Source of the DNA: Rhodocyclaceae bacterium
GTDB lineage: Bacteria; Pseudomonadota; Gammaproteobacteria; Burkholderiales; Rhodocyclaceae
NCBI GenBank assembly: GCA_020445785.1
Contig: JAGRFZ010000042.1
Span: 8,517-43,613 of the forward strand
Direction: 5' to 3'
Length of the DNA: 35,097 nt
Shown here in pieces: positions 7,489-20,509 of this stretch; position 1 is the first letter of the stretch; every line of letters starts with the position of its first letter. Made by a program: the position numbers and the translations under genes. The notes under the pieces were generated by a model that worked only from the letters and a program-made list of their open reading frames with translations, had not been told where the DNA came from and made no database searches.

Positions 7489-8337
7489 TCATTCCTCGAT
7501 GTGGCGCAGCGACAGGTCGATGGCCTGCACGTTCTTGGTGAGGCCGCCGATCGAGATGCGGTCGACACCGGTCTCGGCGATTTCCCGCACCGACGCCAGG
7601 CTGACGCTACCCGACGCCTCGAGTTCCGCCCGCCCGGCATTGATCCGCACGGCCTCGCGCATGTCATCGAGACCCATGTTGTCGAGCAGGACCATGCGGG
7701 CGCCGGCATCCAGGGCCTCGCGCAACTGGGAGATCGATTCGACCTCGATCTCGATGAACGCGTTGCCGCTGGCGATCCGGCGGGCGATTTCCAGCACTTG
7801 GCGAACGCCACCCGCCGAGATGATGTGGTTCTCCTTGATCAGGATGCCGTCGTAGAGCCCGATGCGGTGGTTGACGCCGCCGCCGACCTGGACCGCGTAC
7901 TTCTGCGCGAGCCGCAGCCCCGGCAAGGTCTTGCGCGTATCGACGATGTCGGCGCCGGTGCCGGCCACGGCGTCGACGTAGCGGCGGGTCAGGCTCGCCG
8001 TCGCCGACAGCAGTTGCAGGAAGTTCAGGCCCGTGCGCTCCGCGGTGAGCAGGTTGCGGGCCGAGGCAATGATGTCGCAGATGGCCTGGCCGGCCTCAAG
8101 ACGGTCGCCATCGACGGCGTGCCAGGTGATCAGGGCATTGGGCTGCAGCGCGGCGAAGGCTGCGTCGAACCACGCGCTGCCGCACAGAATGGCGGATTCC
8201 CGGGTGATCACCCGCCCACGCGCCTGGACCGCATCGGGAATCAGGTGCGCCGTGAGATCACCGGAGCCGACGTCCTCGGCCAGTGCCGCGGCCACGTTGC
8301 GCTGAATTTCGACCCGCAACTGCTCGCCGATGATCAT
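7489..8337 (-). CDS. nadC: Nicotinate-nucleotide diphosphorylase (carboxylating), quinolinate phosphoribosyltransferase
   Basis: NadC makes nicotinate mononucleotide from quinolinate and PRPP in de novo NAD synthesis. The 282 residues show the family landmarks: EDVGSGDLT near the N-terminus, AERTGLNFLQLLSA, VDTRKTLPGLR, KYAVQVGGGVNHRIGLYDGILIKENH, EIEVES, VLLDNM and the C-terminal SIGGLTKN. Length is normal. ATG 8337 follows GGGGAG at good spacing. nadA and nadB are not beside it. It is divergent from the Ada/AlkA gene, with a 145-base gap in which I see no clear operator. Confidence 0.97.
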   Translation of the reverse strand: MIIGEQLRVEIQRNVAAALAEDVGSGDLTAHLIPDAVQARGRVITRESAILCGSAWFDAAFAALQPNALITWHAVDGDRLEAGQAICDIIASARNLLTAERTGLNFLQLLSATASLTRRYVDAVAGTGADIVDTRKTLPGLRLAQKYAVQVGGGVNHRIGLYDGILIKENHIISAGGVRQVLEIARRIASGNAFIEIEVESISQLREALDAGARMVLLDNMGLDDMREAVRINAGRAELEASGSVSLASVREIAETGVDRISIGGLTKNVQAIDLSLRHIEE

Positions 8338-11572: not shown

Positions 11573-12964
<1,392 letters not shown>

Positions 12965-12965
<1 letters not shown>

Positions 12966-12993
12966 ACGCCTGCCCGAGGATGGGGCAGGCGTT
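12965..12993. terminator. Hairpin between convergent fumC and tlpA-like genes
   Basis: AACGCCTGCCC (12965-12975) and GGGCAGGCGTT (12983-12993) make a perfect 11-bp stem with a seven-base loop, starting at the last base of the fumC stop. No long U-run follows on either strand, so termination efficiency is uncertain, but the position between convergent genes suggests a bidirectional terminator. Confidence 0.7.
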
Positions 12994-13009
12994 CGTGCCG
13001 GTCGGATGC

Positions 13010-13486
13010 TCAGGGCGCCGCCGAGACCGCGGACAGCCACGCTTCCGTCTGCTGCAGATCGACGACGCCGCTGTGGGCCCGCGACGTGTGATCGGCAGCG
13101 TGAAAGTAGGTGCGTGGCAGCTCGCCGAACCAGTCGGGGTCGATCCGGAACCGAAGGCGCTCGAGATAGTCGTGGGCGAAGGCCCAACCGGGGGGGCCGT
13201 CCATCGCCATGGCCTGCCACAGCCGCTCGACGTCACCGTGCGCTTCGGGCGGGTCGGCTGCGACGAAGACCACCGGCACCGTCGGGTAGCGGCGGGCCAA
13301 GGCCTGCAGCCGGGGCAGTTCCTCCCGGCACGGTGCGCAGTGGATCGACCACAGCGCGAGAATGAACGGCCGTCCGTCGAGCTGCCGGCGGATGCCGGCC
13401 AGCGACGCTTCATCGAAGGGCCGGGGCGGGGCGGCGAACGCGGCGGCTGACGCCGACAGCAGAACGGCAACGAGCAGCCGCTTCAT
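13010..13486 (-). CDS. TlpA-like exported thioredoxin-fold protein
   Basis: This 158-residue protein has a signal peptide (positively charged MKR, hydrophobic core, cleavage probably after AFA at residue 18) and a thioredoxin fold with redox motif C50-A-P-C53 in WSIHCAPCREELP. It should act in the periplasm as a disulfide reductant or isomerase, like TlpA/ResA. Its start overlaps the stop of the BNR protein (ATGA), making it the last gene of the receptor operon. A likely job is to keep cysteines of the CECC-containing partner or of the DUF2946-like protein reduced; that is inference. Confidence 0.88.
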   Translation of the reverse strand: MKRLLVAVLLSASAAAFAAPPRPFDEASLAGIRRQLDGRPFILALWSIHCAPCREELPRLQALARRYPTVPVVFVAADPPEAHGDVERLWQAMAMDGPPGWAFAHDYLERLRFRIDPDWFGELPRTYFHAADHTSRAHSGVVDLQQTEAWLSAVSAAP

Positions 13487-14655
13487 GGCAGGCGCCAGGT
13501 GCCGAGCGGGAATTCCCGCCCGTGCCAGAAGACGTGGAAGCGGCCGGCTTCGACCAGGACGAAGGGTTGGCCCGAGGCGCCGGTGGTCCTCGCCAGGCTG
13601 TGTGCCTCTCCCCAGTTGTCGCCGCCGTCCTGCGAGCGCAGCGTCCTCAGCTCGGTGGCCTGCCCGTCGAAGCGCTTCCAGGCCAGCACCACCACGTCGT
13701 CGCGGACGGCGAGATCGGCGTGGGCGGCGCGCGCATCCGGCAGCCGCATCACCGCCTCCATGCCGTCGGCGCCGAGACGTCCGTAATAGGCGCCTTCGCG
13801 GCCTGGCGCGCCGGTGAACCAGACCGCGTGGAGACGGCCTGCCCGGTCCTCGACCATCGACGGGCCGTGGTGGGGGCAGGCATCCAGCGCCCACTCGTCC
13901 CGGGTCGCCCGCCGCACCGGCCGGTCGCGGCCGTCGAGGCCGATCGTCGCAGTCGCGTGGTCGCGAACGTTGGGGTCGAAGACGTGCCGCCACAGCGCCT
14001 GAACGTTGCCGTCGCGCGTCGGCGCCAGGGCGATGCGGCAGCACTCGCAGCTGTGGGCCGCGAGTGCCCGCTCGGGTTCGAAACTGCCTCCGCCGTCCCG
14101 CGACACCGCGTAGTAGATCGCTGCCCCCCGATACTCCTCGCCCTTGGCCCTGGCCGCCACCAGGTCGCGCTTGTCGATCCAGCTCACCACCAGTTCGCCG
14201 CCACGGGCGACCGTGATCGCGTCGAAGCGATGGGTGATCGCTTGCCGGTCCCGGTGTACCGTGCGCGGTGGCGAAAAAGCGGCGCCCGGCGTGGTAGCGC
14301 TGGCGATGCGGATTTCGCCGGTGTAGGGCTTGGCCAAGGGCCGGGTCCAGCTCACGTGCAGGCGCCCGGACGGGTCGAACACCAGCTTCGGCCGATTGTC
14401 GCCGCTGGCCGCGATCGGCTCCGGCTCGGCGTTGACCTTGCCCGCTGGATGCCACGTGCGGCCATGGTCGTCGGAGGCCGAGAGCCGGACGTGTTCGCCG
14501 TCGGAATGGACGGCCCACAGCCGGCCGTTGGCGTCGAAGGCCGCCGAGGCACCCAGGGCCGGCCGCTGGCCATGACCGGCGTGGGGCGGCTGTCCGCTCG
14601 CGTGGGTGCCGATCAGCAGCGCGAGCGCCATGGTGAAGAGCCTGCGGATCACCAT
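13483..14655 (-). CDS. Exported BNR/Asp-box beta-propeller protein with CECC and CPHHGP motifs
   Basis: This 390-residue protein has a signal peptide (MVIRRLFTMALALLIGTHASG) and a sialidase-like propeller with at least three Asp-boxes (SASDDHGRTW, SRDGGGSF, SQDGGDNW). It would usually be called an exo-alpha-sialidase, but I see no catalytic sialidase constellation that I can assign. Instead it has C203-E-C205-C206-R and C260-P-H-H-G-P motifs, and an N-terminal HAGHG, suggesting metal or cofactor binding. It overlaps the TonB receptor gene by 7 bases and the tlpA-like gene by 4, so it belongs to an uptake operon. It is more likely a periplasmic metal-handling partner of the receptor than a sugar hydrolase. 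Function unproven. Confidence 0.8.
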   Translation of the reverse strand: MVIRRLFTMALALLIGTHASGQPPHAGHGQRPALGASAAFDANGRLWAVHSDGEHVRLSASDDHGRTWHPAGKVNAEPEPIAASGDNRPKLVFDPSGRLHVSWTRPLAKPYTGEIRIASATTPGAAFSPPRTVHRDRQAITHRFDAITVARGGELVVSWIDKRDLVAARAKGEEYRGAAIYYAVSRDGGGSFEPERALAAHSCECCRIALAPTRDGNVQALWRHVFDPNVRDHATATIGLDGRDRPVRRATRDEWALDACPHHGPSMVEDRAGRLHAVWFTGAPGREGAYYGRLGADGMEAVMRLPDARAAHADLAVRDDVVVLAWKRFDGQATELRTLRSQDGGDNWGEAHSLARTTGASGQPFVLVEAGRFHVFWHGREFPLGTWRLP

Positions 14656-16823
14656 GTCGCCTCCGCGCCGGCGACCAGGGTCCGCGGCAGGCCGGGCGAA
14701 TAGACCGGCGTCGACGATGAGATCTGGGCACTGTCGGCGTAGCGATGGTCACCCAGGTTGGTGATGTTGGCGAACAGCCTCAGCCCGGCGCTTGCTGCCC
14801 ATTCCGCGCGCAGATGGAACAGGTCGTGGCCGCCGTAGCGCGTGGTGTTGGCCTGGTCCATCCAATAGCTGCCGACATGCACCCACTCGAGTTGGAGGCG
14901 GGTGCCTGCAGTCGGCGACCAGCCGAGCCGGGTGTTGCCGAGGAAGCGGGGGGCCGCTTCGATCTCGTTGCCGCTGAAATCGGCCGTGCCCGGAACCACC
15001 CAGTCGCCGTATTCGTGGCGCGCCCACGACAGCGCGGTATCGATGCGCCACGCACCGCCAAGTGGCAGGCCGGCGGCGAGTTCGATGCCGCGGTGGGTCG
15101 TGCGTCCGGCATTGACCACGGTGGTGGCGTTGGTGGCGGTATCCCGATAGCTGAGGATGTCGTCGCGCTTGGTGAGCTGGTAGATCACCGCGTCGTAGTC
15201 GAGCGCGCCGACGCGGCCGCGCAGCCCGGCTTCGATCTGGTCGGCCTTGACCGGCTCGAGCGTCAGCGCGGATGCGGCCGATCCCTGGGCCGCTTCGGCA
15301 CTCGACCCCGCCGATGGGCGGAACAGCTGGCTCTCGGAAGGCGCCCGGAAGCCATGGGTCCAGGCCAGATGCAGGCTGCTGGCCTCGGTCAGCGCGAAGC
15401 TCAGGCCCAGTTTCGGGCTGACGTGGTCGAAGTCGACCTCGCCGTCGGCCGTCTGGCCATAGTAGCGGGTACTCGGATTGCCATTGGTGGTCGTCGTCAC
15501 CGCCACGGCCTCCGGGGCGAAGGCGTTGTCGAAGTCGTAGCGCAAGTGGTCGTAGCGCAAGCCGGCGCTCACGCGCAGGCGTTCGGTCGGCGAGAACTCG
15601 GCATGGACATAAGGTGAGATGCCGGTGAAGCTGACCTCATAGTCATAGGCCACGCCGCCGACGCTGTAGTCGAGGAATTCGCGCGACGCACCGGAGCCTT
15701 CGGTCACCAGGTTCAGCCGCCGTTCGAGGCGACTGCCGGGGCTGTGGTCGAGGTCCACACCGATGATCAGCCGCGTTCGCATCGGCGTCAGATCGCGGCG
15801 CCACTTCGCCAGCAGCCCGATCGAGCGGTTTTCGGTGGTGTATACGGTGGGGTCGAAGGCCAGGCGGAAGGTCGCCAGCAGGTCCATGCTGTCGTCGCGG
15901 TAGTACGGGGTCAGCGAGTAGAGATCGGCACCGTCCTCATGCTCGATGGCGCTCGAAAGGCGCAACGCGTTGACCTTGCGGAAGGCGATCTGCTTGTAGT
16001 TGCGGGTCGGGTCGTGGTCGAAATCGTCGCGGATCAGCGGCGAACCGGCGCCGGTCTGCTGGTCGATGCTCGAATAGGCCAGCACCGTCTTGGCGACCGT
16101 GCTGTCGTCCGTCGCATGGTCCCAGCGCAGCGTGGCGCTGTGGCGGTCGTAGTCGGTGCCGTCGCGCCAGCCGTCGGTGTGGGTGAGGTTCGCGTCGGCC
16201 CGCCAGCCGCCGGCGTCGTAGCCCGCGCCGCCGCCGGCCAGCAGCCGCCACCAACCGTGGCCGCCGGCCTCGGCGGACAGCGACAGCTCGGGGGTGAGCG
16301 GTGGCGTGCGGGTGAGCACGTTGATGATGCCGCCGATCGCGTCGGAGCCGTACAGGGCGGTACCCGGGCCCCGGGTGACCTCGATGCCGCCGGACTGTGG
16401 CAGGTTGACCTCGTAGAGGGCGTTGTGGTTGAAGAAGCCGGTGGAGCGGGTCGGTACGCCGTCCTCGAGGAAGAGATAGACCGGCGCGGTGGTAAATGGC
16501 TGGCGGATCGCCGTGGTGTGCCCCTCGCCGTTGGTGACGGCGACCGCCGCGCCGGGCACCTGGCCGACGATTTCGCTGGGGTGGGTGGGCCGCACCAGGC
16601 GTACGGCCTCCTCGCCGACGACGCCGACCGCAGCCGCCGTCTCCGCGAGCGGCTGCTGTTCGCGGGTGCCGGTGACCGATACGGCCGGCAGGGTCAGCGC
16701 CGGGGCATCGGCGCAGGCGGCCGGGGTGGGCAGCCAAAGCAAGCCGAAGGGTAGCGCGGTCAGTGCGGCGAGCGGCTTGCGCCGCGCAGGCGCACGACGG
16801 CGCCCGGTGATTTCGGGTTTCAT
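14649..16823 (-). CDS. TonB-dependent outer-membrane receptor (probable metal or metallophore uptake)
   Basis: This 724-residue protein has a long signal region ending near AACADAP, a TonB-box-like LPAVSVTGT segment, a plug domain (about 55-165: EIVGQVPGAAVAV, IRQPFTTAPVYLFLEDGVPTR, GIEVTRGPGTALYGSDAIGGIINV) and a ~550-residue beta-barrel ending in the aromatic residue of AEATW. Substrate is not readable from the sequence; the neighbouring DUF2946-like leader gene suggests copper. ATG 16823 is preceded by AGGAGAAAAGAAC, a strong ribosome-binding site, which in turn lies just after a 12-13 bp hairpin. The stop overlaps the downstream BNR gene. Confidence 0.93.
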   Translation of the reverse strand: MKPEITGRRRAPARRKPLAALTALPFGLLWLPTPAACADAPALTLPAVSVTGTREQQPLAETAAAVGVVGEEAVRLVRPTHPSEIVGQVPGAAVAVTNGEGHTTAIRQPFTTAPVYLFLEDGVPTRSTGFFNHNALYEVNLPQSGGIEVTRGPGTALYGSDAIGGIINVLTRTPPLTPELSLSAEAGGHGWWRLLAGGGAGYDAGGWRADANLTHTDGWRDGTDYDRHSATLRWDHATDDSTVAKTVLAYSSIDQQTGAGSPLIRDDFDHDPTRNYKQIAFRKVNALRLSSAIEHEDGADLYSLTPYYRDDSMDLLATFRLAFDPTVYTTENRSIGLLAKWRRDLTPMRTRLIIGVDLDHSPGSRLERRLNLVTEGSGASREFLDYSVGGVAYDYEVSFTGISPYVHAEFSPTERLRVSAGLRYDHLRYDFDNAFAPEAVAVTTTTNGNPSTRYYGQTADGEVDFDHVSPKLGLSFALTEASSLHLAWTHGFRAPSESQLFRPSAGSSAEAAQGSAASALTLEPVKADQIEAGLRGRVGALDYDAVIYQLTKRDDILSYRDTATNATTVVNAGRTTHRGIELAAGLPLGGAWRIDTALSWARHEYGDWVVPGTADFSGNEIEAAPRFLGNTRLGWSPTAGTRLQLEWVHVGSYWMDQANTTRYGGHDLFHLRAEWAASAGLRLFANITNLGDHRYADSAQISSSTPVYSPGLPRTLVAGAEATW

Positions 16824-16849
16824 GTTCTTTTCTCCTGAGCGGATCGATC

Positions 16850-16877
16850 GCGCGCTCGGTCGGGCGACCGAGCGCGC
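16850..16877 (-). promoter_or_regulatory. Very stable hairpin just upstream of the TonB receptor ribosome-binding site
   Basis: GCGCGCTCGGTCG (16850-16862) and CGACCGAGCGCGC (16865-16877) are perfect inverted copies, a 12-bp stem with a four-base loop in practice. On the reverse-strand RNA it ends about 13 bases before the AGGAG of the receptor gene. There is no U-run. It could act as an attenuator element or an mRNA stabiliser between the leader gene and the receptor. Confidence 0.65.
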
Positions 16878-16885
16878 GCAATAGG

Positions 16886-16914
16886 GACGCGGGCGGGCAT
16901 TGCCCGCGGGCGTC
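16886..16914 (-). promoter_or_regulatory. Second hairpin in the leader between the DUF2946-like gene and the TonB receptor
   Basis: GACGC (16886-16890) pairs with GCGTC (16910-16914), and inside it GCGGGC (16893-16898) pairs with GCCCGC (16902-16907), separated by a symmetric two-base internal loop. It begins 12 bases after the stop of the leader gene. Together with the hairpin at 16850-16877 it fills most of the 102-base gap. Confidence 0.6.
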
Positions 16915-16925
16915 TAGCGGTCGCG

Positions 16926-17300
16926 TCAGGAGAGCGGCGGTGGGCCGCGGGGGGCGCTGGGCGAGTATTCGGCGGGCGGCGCGCGCGCCTCTGCCCCGTG
17001 GGCCGCCCGTGCCAGCCGACGGTTGCGGTCGGCAGTGAAATCGAACGACGCGCCACAGCCGTCGCACGGCACTGCGGCGCAGATGCAGCCGAGGTCGCAG
17101 CACTCGTGGGCGAGCTCGCCGGCGGGGGCGTCCGGTGCAAGGCTCGATATCGAGACCAGGCCCTGCGATGTGCAGACGACCTGACCGTCGACGCCCATGC
17201 CGGCCATCGACGCGGTACTGGCGAGATGCAGCAGGAGTGCCAGCACGCCCAGGACATTCAGGGTCACGCGTCGACGGAGGGTGGGTTGGCGAGGATTCAC
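16926..17300 (-). CDS. Short Cys-rich exported protein, DUF2946-like (possible copper-sensing leader gene)
   Basis: The frame gives 124 residues from GTG 17300, which follows GGAG at eight bases. It has an RRR-start signal-type helix (VTLNVLGVLALLLHLASTASMA), then a conserved-looking VVCTSQGLVSI segment and a cysteine cluster ECCDLGCICAAVPCDGC with a nearby His, then a Pro-rich tail. The CT-x-x-G plus later Cys cluster pattern is that of DUF2946. In Bordetella pertussis a DUF2946 protein (CruR) is encoded just upstream of a TonB receptor and controls it after transcription in response to copper; by analogy this gene may be a regulatory upstream reading frame. The family call is from memory of the pattern; no search was run. 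A weak promoter-like pair lies at 17348-17320. Confidence 0.68.
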   Translation of the reverse strand: MNPRQPTLRRRVTLNVLGVLALLLHLASTASMAGMGVDGQVVCTSQGLVSISSLAPDAPAGELAHECCDLGCICAAVPCDGCGASFDFTADRNRRLARAAHGAEARAPPAEYSPSAPRGPPPLS

Positions 17301-17319
17301 GGCATCGGCTCCGGCGCGG

Positions 17320-17348
17320 AATGTATCACCCCGCACCCGAAGTGGGAA
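17320..17348 (-). promoter_or_regulatory. Candidate promoter of the DUF2946/TonB operon
   Basis: On the reverse strand TTCCCA (17348-17343) and TACATT (17325-17320, with a TGA just before it) are 17 bases apart. Each matches four of six consensus bases. The start would be very close to GTG 17300, leaving only a short leader. Weak evidence. Confidence 0.3.
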
Positions 17349-17383
17349 GACATCCCATGGCGACGACCGCAGGGCAGGGCCGA

Positions 17384-20300
17384 TCAGGCCTCCACCGGAG
17401 CGGCGGCACGGCCCGCTTGGCGGCCCAATACGCGCTTGAGGCTTTCCAGCAGCGACAGCAGCGCCGGCACGAAAAAGAGCACCAGCACAGCCGAGAAGCC
17501 GAGGCCGAAGGCGATCGACGCCGCCATCGGAATCAGGAACTGGGCCTGCAACGAAGTCTCGAAGAGCAGCGGTGTGAGGCCGCCGATCGTGGTCAGCGAA
17601 GTCAGCAGCACCGCCCGCAAGCGGGCGCAGGACGCACCGACCAGCGCTTCCTCGCGTGCCATGCCCTTCTTCTGCAGGGTCTGGAACATCGTCACCAGAA
17701 TGATCGAATTGTTGACCACGATCCCCGACAGGCCGAACAGACCGAACATGGACAGGATGGTGAGCTTGAGCCCCAGCAGCCAGTGGCCGAAGATGGCACC
17801 GGCGAGACCCAGCGGGATCGCCGCCATCACCACCAGCGGCCAGCTCCACGAGGCAAACGACCATACCAGGATGAAGTAGATCAGGGTCAGGCCGACGAAC
17901 AGGCCGCGGCCCATGTCGGCCATCGTCTCGCGCTGGTCGCTGGCGCGCCCCTCGAAGCTGAAGGCGACGCCGTGTCTTGCGGCCAGCGCCGGCAAGGTCT
18001 CGCGGGCCAGTTCGGCGCGGATGATGTCCGCGGAACTGCGTCGGCTGTCGATCTCCCCCGAAACCTCGACCGCGAGCCGGCCGTCGGCGTGGCGCAGGGC
18101 TTCGAAGCCGCGCCGGGACTCGAAGGAGGCGACGCTGGCGAGCGGCGCGAACTCGCCGCTCGCCAGGCGGATGGCGATGCGGTCGAAGACATCGAGGCGG
18201 GTGCGTTCGTCGCGTGGCAACAGCACCCGCACTTCGAGTTCGTCGCGTCCGACCTGCACCAGTTGGGCGAGGCTGCCATCGAAGGCTGCCCGCAATTGGC
18301 GGCCCAGGCTTTCGGTGGTCAGGCCGAGCGCTTCCCCGGCCGGACTCAGTCGATAGATCAGTTGTTCGCGGCCGAAGGGCATGTCGTCTTCGGTGTCGCT
18401 GACGCCGGGAATGCTCTTCATGGTCTCGGCCAGCTCCAGTGCGGCGGCCTTGAGGGCGTCGGCATCGTCGCCGCTCAGCCGCACATTGAGGTCGCGACCC
18501 GGCGGCCCGGCGCGTCGGGCAGTGAAGGTCAACAGTTCGAGGCCGGCCGCCGGTGCCACCTTCTCGCGCCAGACCTGGAGAAAGCGATCGTTGCGCACGC
18601 TGCGACTATCGGGCGGCGACAGTTCGATCATCATCGACGCGAGCTGGTCGCCGCGGGCGCTGCCGCCGGCGCCGGTGCCGACCGTCGAACCCAGCCAGGA
18701 CACTGCGGTGTGCACCAGATCGCCGCCGAGTTCGCGCTCGGTCTCGGCCAGCGCGTGCTCCAGGCGGCGCAGGAAGGCCTCGGTGTCGTGCCGTGGCGTG
18801 CCGGCGACGAAGGTGGCGTTGGCATAGATGGTCTGACCTTCGGGTGCCGGGAAGAATTCGAAGCCGATGCGTCCGCCGGCAAGCAGGCCCACCGCCAGCA
18901 CCATCAGCGCCAGGGTGATGGCGACGGTGGTGCCGCGCCAGGCCAGCGCCAAGCGCATCAGGCGCTGGAAGTAGTGGTCGCGGAAACGCGCGAAGCCGTC
19001 TTCGAGTCGCCGGCGCAGGCGCGAGGTCTTGGCGGCGGCTTCGCCGCGCAAGGCGCTCTTGAGATGCGAGGGCAGGATCAGAAAGCTCTCGAGCAGCGAC
19101 GCCAGGATCACCATCACCATGACGAACGGGATGTCGCCGAGGATGTTGCCGATGACGCCGCCGACCATGATCAGCGGTACGAAGGCCGCCACCGTGGTCA
19201 GCGAGGCTGCGATCACCGGCGCCAACATGCGGCGGGCGCCGCCCAGAGCTGCGGCTTCCGGTGGTTCGCCCATGCCGCGGTGGGTGTCGGCGTCCTCGCT
19301 GACGACGATCGCGTCGTCGACGATGATGCCGAGCGCCATGATCAATGCGAACAGGCTGATCATGTTGATCGATCCGCCGAAGATCAGCATCAGGCCGAGG
19401 GTGCCGAGGAAGGCGGTCGGAATGCCGACCATGACCCAGAAGGCGACCCGCGCGGGCAGGAAGAGGTAGAGCACCAGCACCACCAGCAGCAGGCCGCCGA
19501 GGCCGTTCTTGATCAGCAATTCGATGCGGTCGCGGATCAGTTGCCACTGGGCGTCGAACACTTCCAGCGTGATCGACGGCGGCAGCGTGGGGCGGGTGTG
19601 CGCGAGCCAGCGGTCGAGCGCTTCGGCCGCGCGCAGCGAATGGCCGCTCTCGGCACGTTGCAGCTTCATCTCGACCACCGCGTCGCCGCCTTCGCTGAGG
19701 GTCAGCGCGCCGGGCCGCGGCTCGCGGCGGATCTCGGCGATGTCGCCGAGCCGGATCAGGCCGGAGGGCTCGCTCGACACCGGCAGTTCCGCGAACGAGG
19801 CGGCGTCGCGGCGTTGTTCGAGGCCGCGCAATTCGCGGGCACCGTCGCGCTCGCCGGCGATGCCGGCCGGAACGTCGCGGGCGATCTGGGCCACCCGTTC
19901 GCTGATTTCGACCAGCGACAGACCCAGGGTCTGCAGGGCCGCCGACGGAATCTCGATGGCGATGCGCTGCTCAGGCAGGCCGGTGATGTCGATGCGGTCG
20001 ATGCCGCCGGCCAGCAGTTCGCTCTCGAAGCGCCGGACCCAGGGACGAAGCTGCTCGACGTCACCGCCGCGCACCAGCAGGCGTGCGATCGGCTCGTAAC
20101 GGGTGATCCGGCTGATCTGGGGGGTTTCGGCATCCCGCGGGAGATTGCGGAACTCGTCCACCCGCTGGCGTACCTGGTCGAGCGCCAGCAAGGGATCCGT
20201 GCCTTCCTCGAGTTCGAGCGTAATGCTGGCGATTCCCTGGGCCGAGGTCGAACTCATCCGCTTGAGGCCGTCCACGTTCTTCAGGCGCTCTTCCAGGGGA

Positions 20301-20509
20301 TCGATGATGCCGACCTCGACGTCTTCCGCCGAAGCGCCGCTCCACACGACCCGCACGCTGACGATGTCCAGTTCGAAGGTCGGAAAGAATTGCACGTTCA
20401 TTCGGCTGACGCCGACCAGGCCGGCGAAAACGGCCAACAGCATCAACACGTTCGCGGCAACCCGGTGGCGCAGCAGCGCCGCCAGGATTCCTTGTTTGCC
20501 GGCGCTCAT
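17384..20509 (-). CDS. RND efflux transporter permease (AcrB/HAE1-like)
   Basis: This is a 1041-residue inner-membrane proton-driven pump. It shows the N-terminal membrane helix (VAANVLMLLAVFAGLVGV), the porter-domain start RMNVQFFPTFELDIVSV, the central helix bundle with the proton-relay motif LGIIVDDAIVV, the second half starting GRIGFEFFPAPEGQTIY, and a final bundle with LFGLSGIVVNNSIIL. Length is normal for a three-component pump. Its start overlaps the stop of the membrane-fusion protein gene (ATGA). No outer-membrane channel gene is present in this window. Substrates cannot be read; it is not of the heavy-metal CusA/CzcA type as far as I can judge. Confidence 0.93.
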   Translation of the reverse strand: MSAGKQGILAALLRHRVAANVLMLLAVFAGLVGVSRMNVQFFPTFELDIVSVRVVWSGASAEDVEVGIIDPLEERLKNVDGLKRMSSTSAQGIASITLELEEGTDPLLALDQVRQRVDEFRNLPRDAETPQISRITRYEPIARLLVRGGDVEQLRPWVRRFESELLAGGIDRIDITGLPEQRIAIEIPSAALQTLGLSLVEISERVAQIARDVPAGIAGERDGARELRGLEQRRDAASFAELPVSSEPSGLIRLGDIAEIRREPRPGALTLSEGGDAVVEMKLQRAESGHSLRAAEALDRWLAHTRPTLPPSITLEVFDAQWQLIRDRIELLIKNGLGGLLLVVLVLYLFLPARVAFWVMVGIPTAFLGTLGLMLIFGGSINMISLFALIMALGIIVDDAIVVSEDADTHRGMGEPPEAAALGGARRMLAPVIAASLTTVAAFVPLIMVGGVIGNILGDIPFVMVMVILASLLESFLILPSHLKSALRGEAAAKTSRLRRRLEDGFARFRDHYFQRLMRLALAWRGTTVAITLALMVLAVGLLAGGRIGFEFFPAPEGQTIYANATFVAGTPRHDTEAFLRRLEHALAETERELGGDLVHTAVSWLGSTVGTGAGGSARGDQLASMMIELSPPDSRSVRNDRFLQVWREKVAPAAGLELLTFTARRAGPPGRDLNVRLSGDDADALKAAALELAETMKSIPGVSDTEDDMPFGREQLIYRLSPAGEALGLTTESLGRQLRAAFDGSLAQLVQVGRDELEVRVLLPRDERTRLDVFDRIAIRLASGEFAPLASVASFESRRGFEALRHADGRLAVEVSGEIDSRRSSADIIRAELARETLPALAARHGVAFSFEGRASDQRETMADMGRGLFVGLTLIYFILVWSFASWSWPLVVMAAIPLGLAGAIFGHWLLGLKLTILSMFGLFGLSGIVVNNSIILVTMFQTLQKKGMAREEALVGASCARLRAVLLTSLTTIGGLTPLLFETSLQAQFLIPMAASIAFGLGFSAVLVLFFVPALLSLLESLKRVLGRQAGRAAAPVEA

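Follow-up and report, generated by a model that had tools for sequence, protein, structure and literature searches.

A conserved propeller-TlpA block behind a CruR/DUF2946-like leader in a predicted copper-related operon of a Rhodocyclaceae bacterium

The CruR-CrtA(BfrG)-PepSY_TM(CrpH) operon of Bordetella pertussis (PMC9426467, PMC12914433, PMC13038864) is headed by a DUF2946-type leader that precedes a TonB-dependent receptor gene. The CruR peptide carries a CXXC motif about 45 residues before a RAPP motif, which itself lies three residues before the end (PMC9426467). In CutF-CutO of Rhodobacter capsulatus (PMC9973294), copper turns on a multicopper oxidase through an exported nascent copper sensor that has a CxxxC motif and a Pro-rich end, together with a stem-loop that shields the downstream Shine-Dalgarno (SD) sequence. 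The SecM-SecA system and the RAPP arrest peptides (PMC10987492, PMC10951233) share RAGP/RAPP-type motifs; in the arrest state that is known, RAP occupies the P-site and Pro the A-site (PMC10951233). A masked SD sequence is freed by SecM and by at least one further arrest peptide. That the stalled ribosome opens the masking stem is established in the case of SecM and has support in one other case (PMC10987492). These peptides serve protein-localization genes, not a metal. RAPP/RGPP peptides upstream of TonB-related genes have already been described (PMC12992588). Here, we analyzed a 35,097-nucleotide (nt) stretch of DNA (the window; contig JAGRFZ010000042.1, positions 8,517 to 43,613) from a Rhodocyclaceae draft genome (4.58 Mb, 231 contigs), in which four minus-strand genes encode a CruR/DUF2946-like leader, a TonB-dependent receptor, an Asp-box propeller and a TlpA-like thioredoxin. 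The leader probably acts as a nascent-chain copper sensor on the other three genes.

Like the CruR operon, this block places a leader with a Cys motif, and with a RAPP-type motif three residues from its end, before a receptor gene, but it has the propeller and the TlpA-like protein where the CruR operon has PepSY_TM, and a 102-nt gap with SD pairing instead of 162 nt and Rho. Unlike CruR, the window leader has two arrest-type motifs and a CxxxC; the CxxxC and the Pro-rich end are shared with CutF, and the role of an exported nascent copper sensor and the stem-loop over the downstream SD are predicted to be, as is arrest of the kind seen in the RAPP peptides. The original prediction of four overlapping or closely spaced minus-strand genes was confirmed for the leader (16926..17300; 124 residues, GTG start, Cys-rich upstream open reading frame [ORF]), the receptor (14649..16823; 724 residues), the propeller (13483..14655; 390 residues) and the thioredoxin (13010..13486; 158 residues). 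The leader is the first gene of the predicted copper-related operon, with 102 nt between its stop codon and the receptor ATG; receptor and propeller genes overlap by 7 nt, and propeller and thioredoxin genes by 4 nt. The hydrophobic N-terminus of the leader and the export of the block proteins were judged by eye from sequence. The protein identities proposed earlier also held: the receptor matched the Pfam models of the barrel (4.2e-44) and of the plug (3.5e-11), the Asp-box protein matched BNR_2 (2.9e-6) and BNR (3.5e-6), both under the Pfam cut-offs, and the thioredoxin, with a CAPC active site, matched AhpC-TSA (3.9e-5; 24.0 bits against a cut-off of 26).

The overlapping receptor, propeller and TlpA genes are conserved as a block. 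At E up to 0.001, relatives of the propeller turned up in 31/369 genomes sampled from the class, 82/297 from the family and 66/399 from the order. These samples overlap, and some genomes are present twice. Of five other genomes sampled from the same genus, three have the propeller. The closest relatives of the window propeller belong to Rhodocyclaceae metagenome-assembled genomes. In the fetched neighbourhoods, the three genes were consecutive with small overlaps across many genera. Among the named loci, which are the best 80 of 491 propeller relatives from a scan of named genomes and come from Rhodocyclaceae, Aromatoleum, Dechloromonas, Oxalobacteraceae, Lysobacteraceae, Steroidobacter and also Opitutae, a receptor lay upstream in 73/80, a TlpA gene downstream in 64/80, and both in 57/80, with loci cut by contig ends scored as misses; this agreement bears out the expectation that the genes are kept together elsewhere. 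The receptor upstream of the propeller is exchangeable, being either of the window type (about 43-62% identical outside the genus) or of much less similar types. By inspection, several loci have TonB-, ExbB- and ExbD-like genes ahead of the receptor. One locus (L180:743-3397) has a leader, then TonB-, ExbB- and ExbD-like genes, and then receptor-propeller-TlpA. In L048:425-1492, an outer-membrane protein recognized by Pfam as Phenol_MetA_deg replaces the receptor before the propeller gene, and an ORF related to it stands in the receptor's place in L050:7171-8298.

The two Cys/His motifs of the propeller, noted originally from the letters of the window, are real: C203, C205, C206 and C260 were the same in 80/80 aligned sequences, far beyond chance, giving an invariant CxCC (CECC at 203-206) and a conserved CPHHGP (260-265). 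H276 was likewise present in 80/80, and H262 and H263 in 77/80, the window sequence included; one of 81 sequences, a partial one, was left out of this alignment, and alignment A1 took 50 sequences. The protein has Asp-box (BNR) repeats on a beta-propeller; its AlphaFold model has a predicted local distance difference test (pLDDT) score of 92.4, and the 50 listed fold matches include lectins, CylK, glycan-active enzymes and YncE; no copper protein is among these 50, which proves nothing. The thioredoxin-like domain carries its CxxC as CAPC and scored 28.2 bits with the TlpA model (cut-off, 230), and its residues W46, C50, C53, D116, W119, G121, E122 and P124 were kept in 53/53 sequences. Natural fusions join these proteins to each other or to further domains. 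A propeller-TlpA fusion occurs in Steroidobacter gossypii (L242:5974-7569), where the TlpA part, seen by pairwise comparison and not by Pfam, is 32% identical to the window thioredoxin over 125 residues (E 2e-23). In two Opitutae (L226:5890-7860, L241:6001-7971), propeller, CusF (35 bits in Pfam) and SCO1/SenC (86-87 bits) form one polypeptide. From this context, we infer that the propeller handles copper and that the TlpA-like protein reduces the propeller. A precedent is the TlpA-ScoI pair of Bradyrhizobium. In that pair, a periplasmic thioredoxin reduces a copper chaperone before metallation (cited in PMC13038864), unlike the present case, in which the presumed client is the propeller and SCO1 appears only in the L226/L241 fusions.

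The assignment of the operon to copper is strong by context, since DUF2946-type leaders, PCuAC genes within the operon and the fusions to CusF-SCO1 and TlpA all support a copper role. A PCuAC gene lies between the leader and a window-type receptor in Aromatoleum and relatives; it was recognized by Pfam in L194 and L182 and by a purpose-built profile, with four seeds from these same loci, in 11 of 63 testable named loci (those with at least 1.5 kb of upstream DNA). The copper operon proposed in the original prediction thus finds contextual support in the leaders of relatives, in PCuAC and in the fusions, although leaders are present in part of the loci only. Of the 63 loci, 25 had a DUF2946-like leader ahead of the receptor, and two further profile matches lay elsewhere in the same loci; the 22 leaders used to build the profile had themselves been selected there by motif and so match it by construction, and L167 and L168 entered the count by motif. 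Pfam placed the leaders of L182, L155, L213 and L225 (52-76 bits) and of L188, L180 and L129 (31-73 bits) over the DUF2946 cut-off of 23.7, among them CC-type leaders at 31-34 bits (the second of L188, two in L180, and L129).

The window leader itself had no Pfam or NCBIfam match, DUF2946 included (PF11162, E up to 10), and a PF11162 search of the source genome was likewise negative (0/1). The literal DUF2946 match predicted for 16926-17300 therefore did not stand. The broader assignment to the CruR/DUF2946 type did, because the leaders of two congeners, L107 (79% identical to the window leader; 15.2 bits) and L108 (54%; 21.2 bits), align with PF11162 across nearly its full length, below the cut-off. 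The window leader has a Cys cluster (CCDLGCICAAVPCDGC, residues 67-82; 17055..17102, minus strand) and two arrest-type motifs, RAPP (residues 106-109; 16974..16985, minus strand) and RGPP (residues 118-121 of 124; 16938..16949, minus strand), both of which L107 and L108 share. The second of these ends the peptide as RGPP-P-L-S-stop, three residues from the C-terminus, and RAPP starts 12 residues before it. C72 lies exactly 45 residues from RGPP; this spacing involves the CxxxC (C68-DLG-C72), whereas the CXXC at 79-82 has 35 residues between it and RGPP. Two DUF2946-type leaders were seen in one locus in L188 (1822-2217 and 3265-3681) and in L178 (1942-2370 and 3388-3810), the second lying directly before the receptor in both and being a weak profile match in L178; serial copper control is possible in these two loci. 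L180 has a second CC-type leader (7580-7999) just downstream of receptor-propeller-TlpA, followed by a receptor-like fragment.

Neither the two arrest-type motifs nor the pairing of the leader's last codons with the receptor ribosome-binding site had been mentioned in the original prediction. The last codons and stop of the leader (TCTCCTGA, 16926..16933, minus strand) are the reverse complement of the receptor SD sequence (TCAGGAGA, 16831..16838, minus strand), which suggests a switch like that of SecM: at low copper, the arrested ribosome would keep the receptor start open. In the predicted fold of 16780-17000, the leader end (CTC TCC TGA) pairs with the receptor SD around two inner hairpins, and this SD/anti-SD stem encloses a 13-bp GC-rich hairpin in the leader-receptor gap (16849..16878, minus strand). 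The fold energy was -115.2, compared with a shuffle mean of -96.0 (z -3.95; 0/200 shuffles as low). L107 and L108 retain the 8-nt pairing without change, the latter having a much different spacer, and the same pairing is made by unlike sequences in L148 (CCTGAAAACGT), L166 (TCTTCCTGAC) and L153 (CTCCTGAAG), while an Aromatoleum leader segment (CCACTCCT) pairs at the PCuAC start. The pairing segment extends from +10 to +17 nt relative to the P-site codon of the expected arrest. The footprint of a stalled ribosome should cover most of this segment.

This pairing was assessed in 43 leader/next-gene pairs, comprising the window, its two congeners and all leaders that scored 40 bits or more, after removal of duplicates and of leaders without a recognized receptor or PCuAC gene; start codons were chosen by script, and those of L126, L149 and L208 are probably wrong. 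Compared with control windows of the same leader, the pairing fell in the best tenth in 12/15 pairs with gaps below 130 nt, a limit chosen after the pairing results had been seen, in 11/15 with gaps of 130-215 nt and in 1/4 beyond, counts that omit nine of the 43 pairs with weak SD cores and include related loci that are not independent. When tails were swapped between lineages, with one value per cluster, the Fisher p was 0.00099 for the 11 short-gap clusters and 0.0011 over all 19 clusters. Regulation in this locus may be closer to the SD masking of SecM or CutF than to the Rho-dependent termination of CruR.

We propose that the receptor would import copper, probably as a chelate, with energy from TonB. 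In the periplasm, the propeller would use its invariant Cys/His site to take over the copper or strip it from its carrier, and a TlpA-like protein dedicated to it would keep the propeller cysteines reduced, much like TlpA with ScoI. At low copper, the ribosome would arrest at RGPP and cover the last codons of the leader, which could then not pair with the receptor SD, so that the operon would be translated. Copper binding to the nascent Cys cluster would relieve the arrest, the ribosome would leave, the stem would close, and uptake would stop. The transport of copper, the arrest itself and the polarity of this switch are what we infer from the context described above. As a whole, the explanation of the locus as a copper-acquisition operon run by a CruR-type leader with a propeller-TlpA pair appears reasonably probable. 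The more specific idea of an undescribed module, in which the propeller unloads chelated copper with the help of its own TlpA, receptors are exchangeable, the leader covers its own anti-SD, and the RAPP-x8-RGPP pair of this genus provides a two-stage arrest, is offered tentatively, and we stop short of calling it probable.

A number of observations weigh against this explanation. The grouping of the propeller Cys and His residues rests on sequence positions, not on model coordinates, and the propeller is absent from two of the five other sampled genomes of the genus. The leader lacks a DUF2946 match, has CxxxC instead of CxxC at the canonical spacing, and has no counterpart in the class-level loci (0/20, some with little upstream DNA), where a search for RAPP-type ORFs gave three only, apparently spurious. 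The three congeners share one and the same pairing, so no compensatory change is seen within the genus; the short-gap loci L149, L126 and L178 fail the pairing test, and the swap test was not significant for gaps above 130 nt (p 0.21, 0.28) or for the window alone (p 0.098). The receptor, as a candidate OprC-type copper receptor (TIGR01778), reached 26.4 bits against an NCBIfam cut-off of 472.45, and among solved structures it is closest to YncD (1.3e-27) and a pyrroloquinoline quinone (PQQ) transporter (3.4e-27).

Under the classical CruR mode, copper would relieve the arrest and Rho would terminate between leader and receptor, the SD pairing being incidental. Rho-dependent termination has been reported for CruR (PMC9426467), and most long-gap receptor loci are without clear SD pairing. 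Against this mode, SD pairing is enriched among short-gap loci in unlike sequences, and the window gap is 102 nt; we consider it unlikely, with a chance worth keeping in mind, and Rho termination and SD masking can coexist. The opposite polarity, in which copper would strengthen the arrest and switch the operon on to serve copper tolerance or the supply of cuproenzymes, takes its appeal from the CxxxC of the window leader and from the SD-shielding stem-loop, both as in CutF (PMC9973294). However, unlike the oxidase target of CutF, the downstream genes here look like uptake genes, a TonB-dependent receptor is expected to be on at low copper, and the leader is kin to DUF2946/CruR, so that we regard this polarity as improbable.

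The YncD and PQQ-transporter matches of the receptor raise the question of whether the block imports an organic cofactor such as PQQ, with the propeller binding that ligand. YncE is among the propeller fold matches, and E. coli yncE lies beside yncD. YncD(PqqU) of E. coli is a receptor of the same broad type, but the window receptor, tried as a PqqU equivalog (NF041535), reached 110.6 bits, far under the cut-off of 1200. E. coli YncE belongs to a different propeller family, which is not known to carry the CxCC and CPHHGP motifs. In other loci, the same propeller and TlpA stand behind receptors of quite another type, and the associations with PCuAC, CusF-SCO1 and DUF2946 also argue against a cofactor, making PQQ-like import quite improbable. 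A sialidase-like enzyme or lectin in a glycan-importing block would account for the Asp-box protein, but the invariant CxCC, the conserved CPHHGP, the dedicated thioredoxin and the CusF-SCO1 fusion misfit a glycosidase, and we give this possibility very little weight.

A copper-acquisition operon of this kind would matter because copper uptake across the Gram-negative outer membrane and its hand-on are poorly known. The widespread propeller and TlpA pair, with its putative metal site, is a candidate for the missing handler behind several kinds of receptor. The leader also points to direct control of translation initiation, besides Rho termination, in part of the DUF2946/CruR family. Such a propeller-TlpA module of a CruR-type copper operon is apparently undescribed so far, and leader action by direct SD masking is possibly a new mode. 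No propeller-TlpA copper system was found among the titles and abstract openings that searches of the open-licence PubMed Central literature returned; in supplementary tables, the set may stand as an unlabelled neighbour. Propeller and sialidase go unmentioned in the available portions of the CruR/CutF/RAPP literature (PMC9426467, PMC12914433, PMC9973294, PMC12992588, PMC13038864, PMC6769254, PMC12617631), as does BNR in those portions where it was sought.

Further features of the receptor and of the surroundings of the block were noted. From residue 39 on, the receptor has no Cys, three Met and 21 His; H81, H102 and H133 in the plug, together with H407, were kept in 36/37 window-type receptors, and H603 in 37/37. 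No chain named CrtA was among its 31 matches in the PDB, and no CrtA sequence was used for comparison. A promoter scan of 12600-17600 returned no sites (shuffle mean, 0.2). The block is flanked by a class II fumarase gene on the opposite strand and, on the same strand, by an RND efflux permease gene (window 17384-20509) that ends 84 nt upstream of the leader. By inspection, an ORF similar to the RND permease also lies directly upstream in L168.
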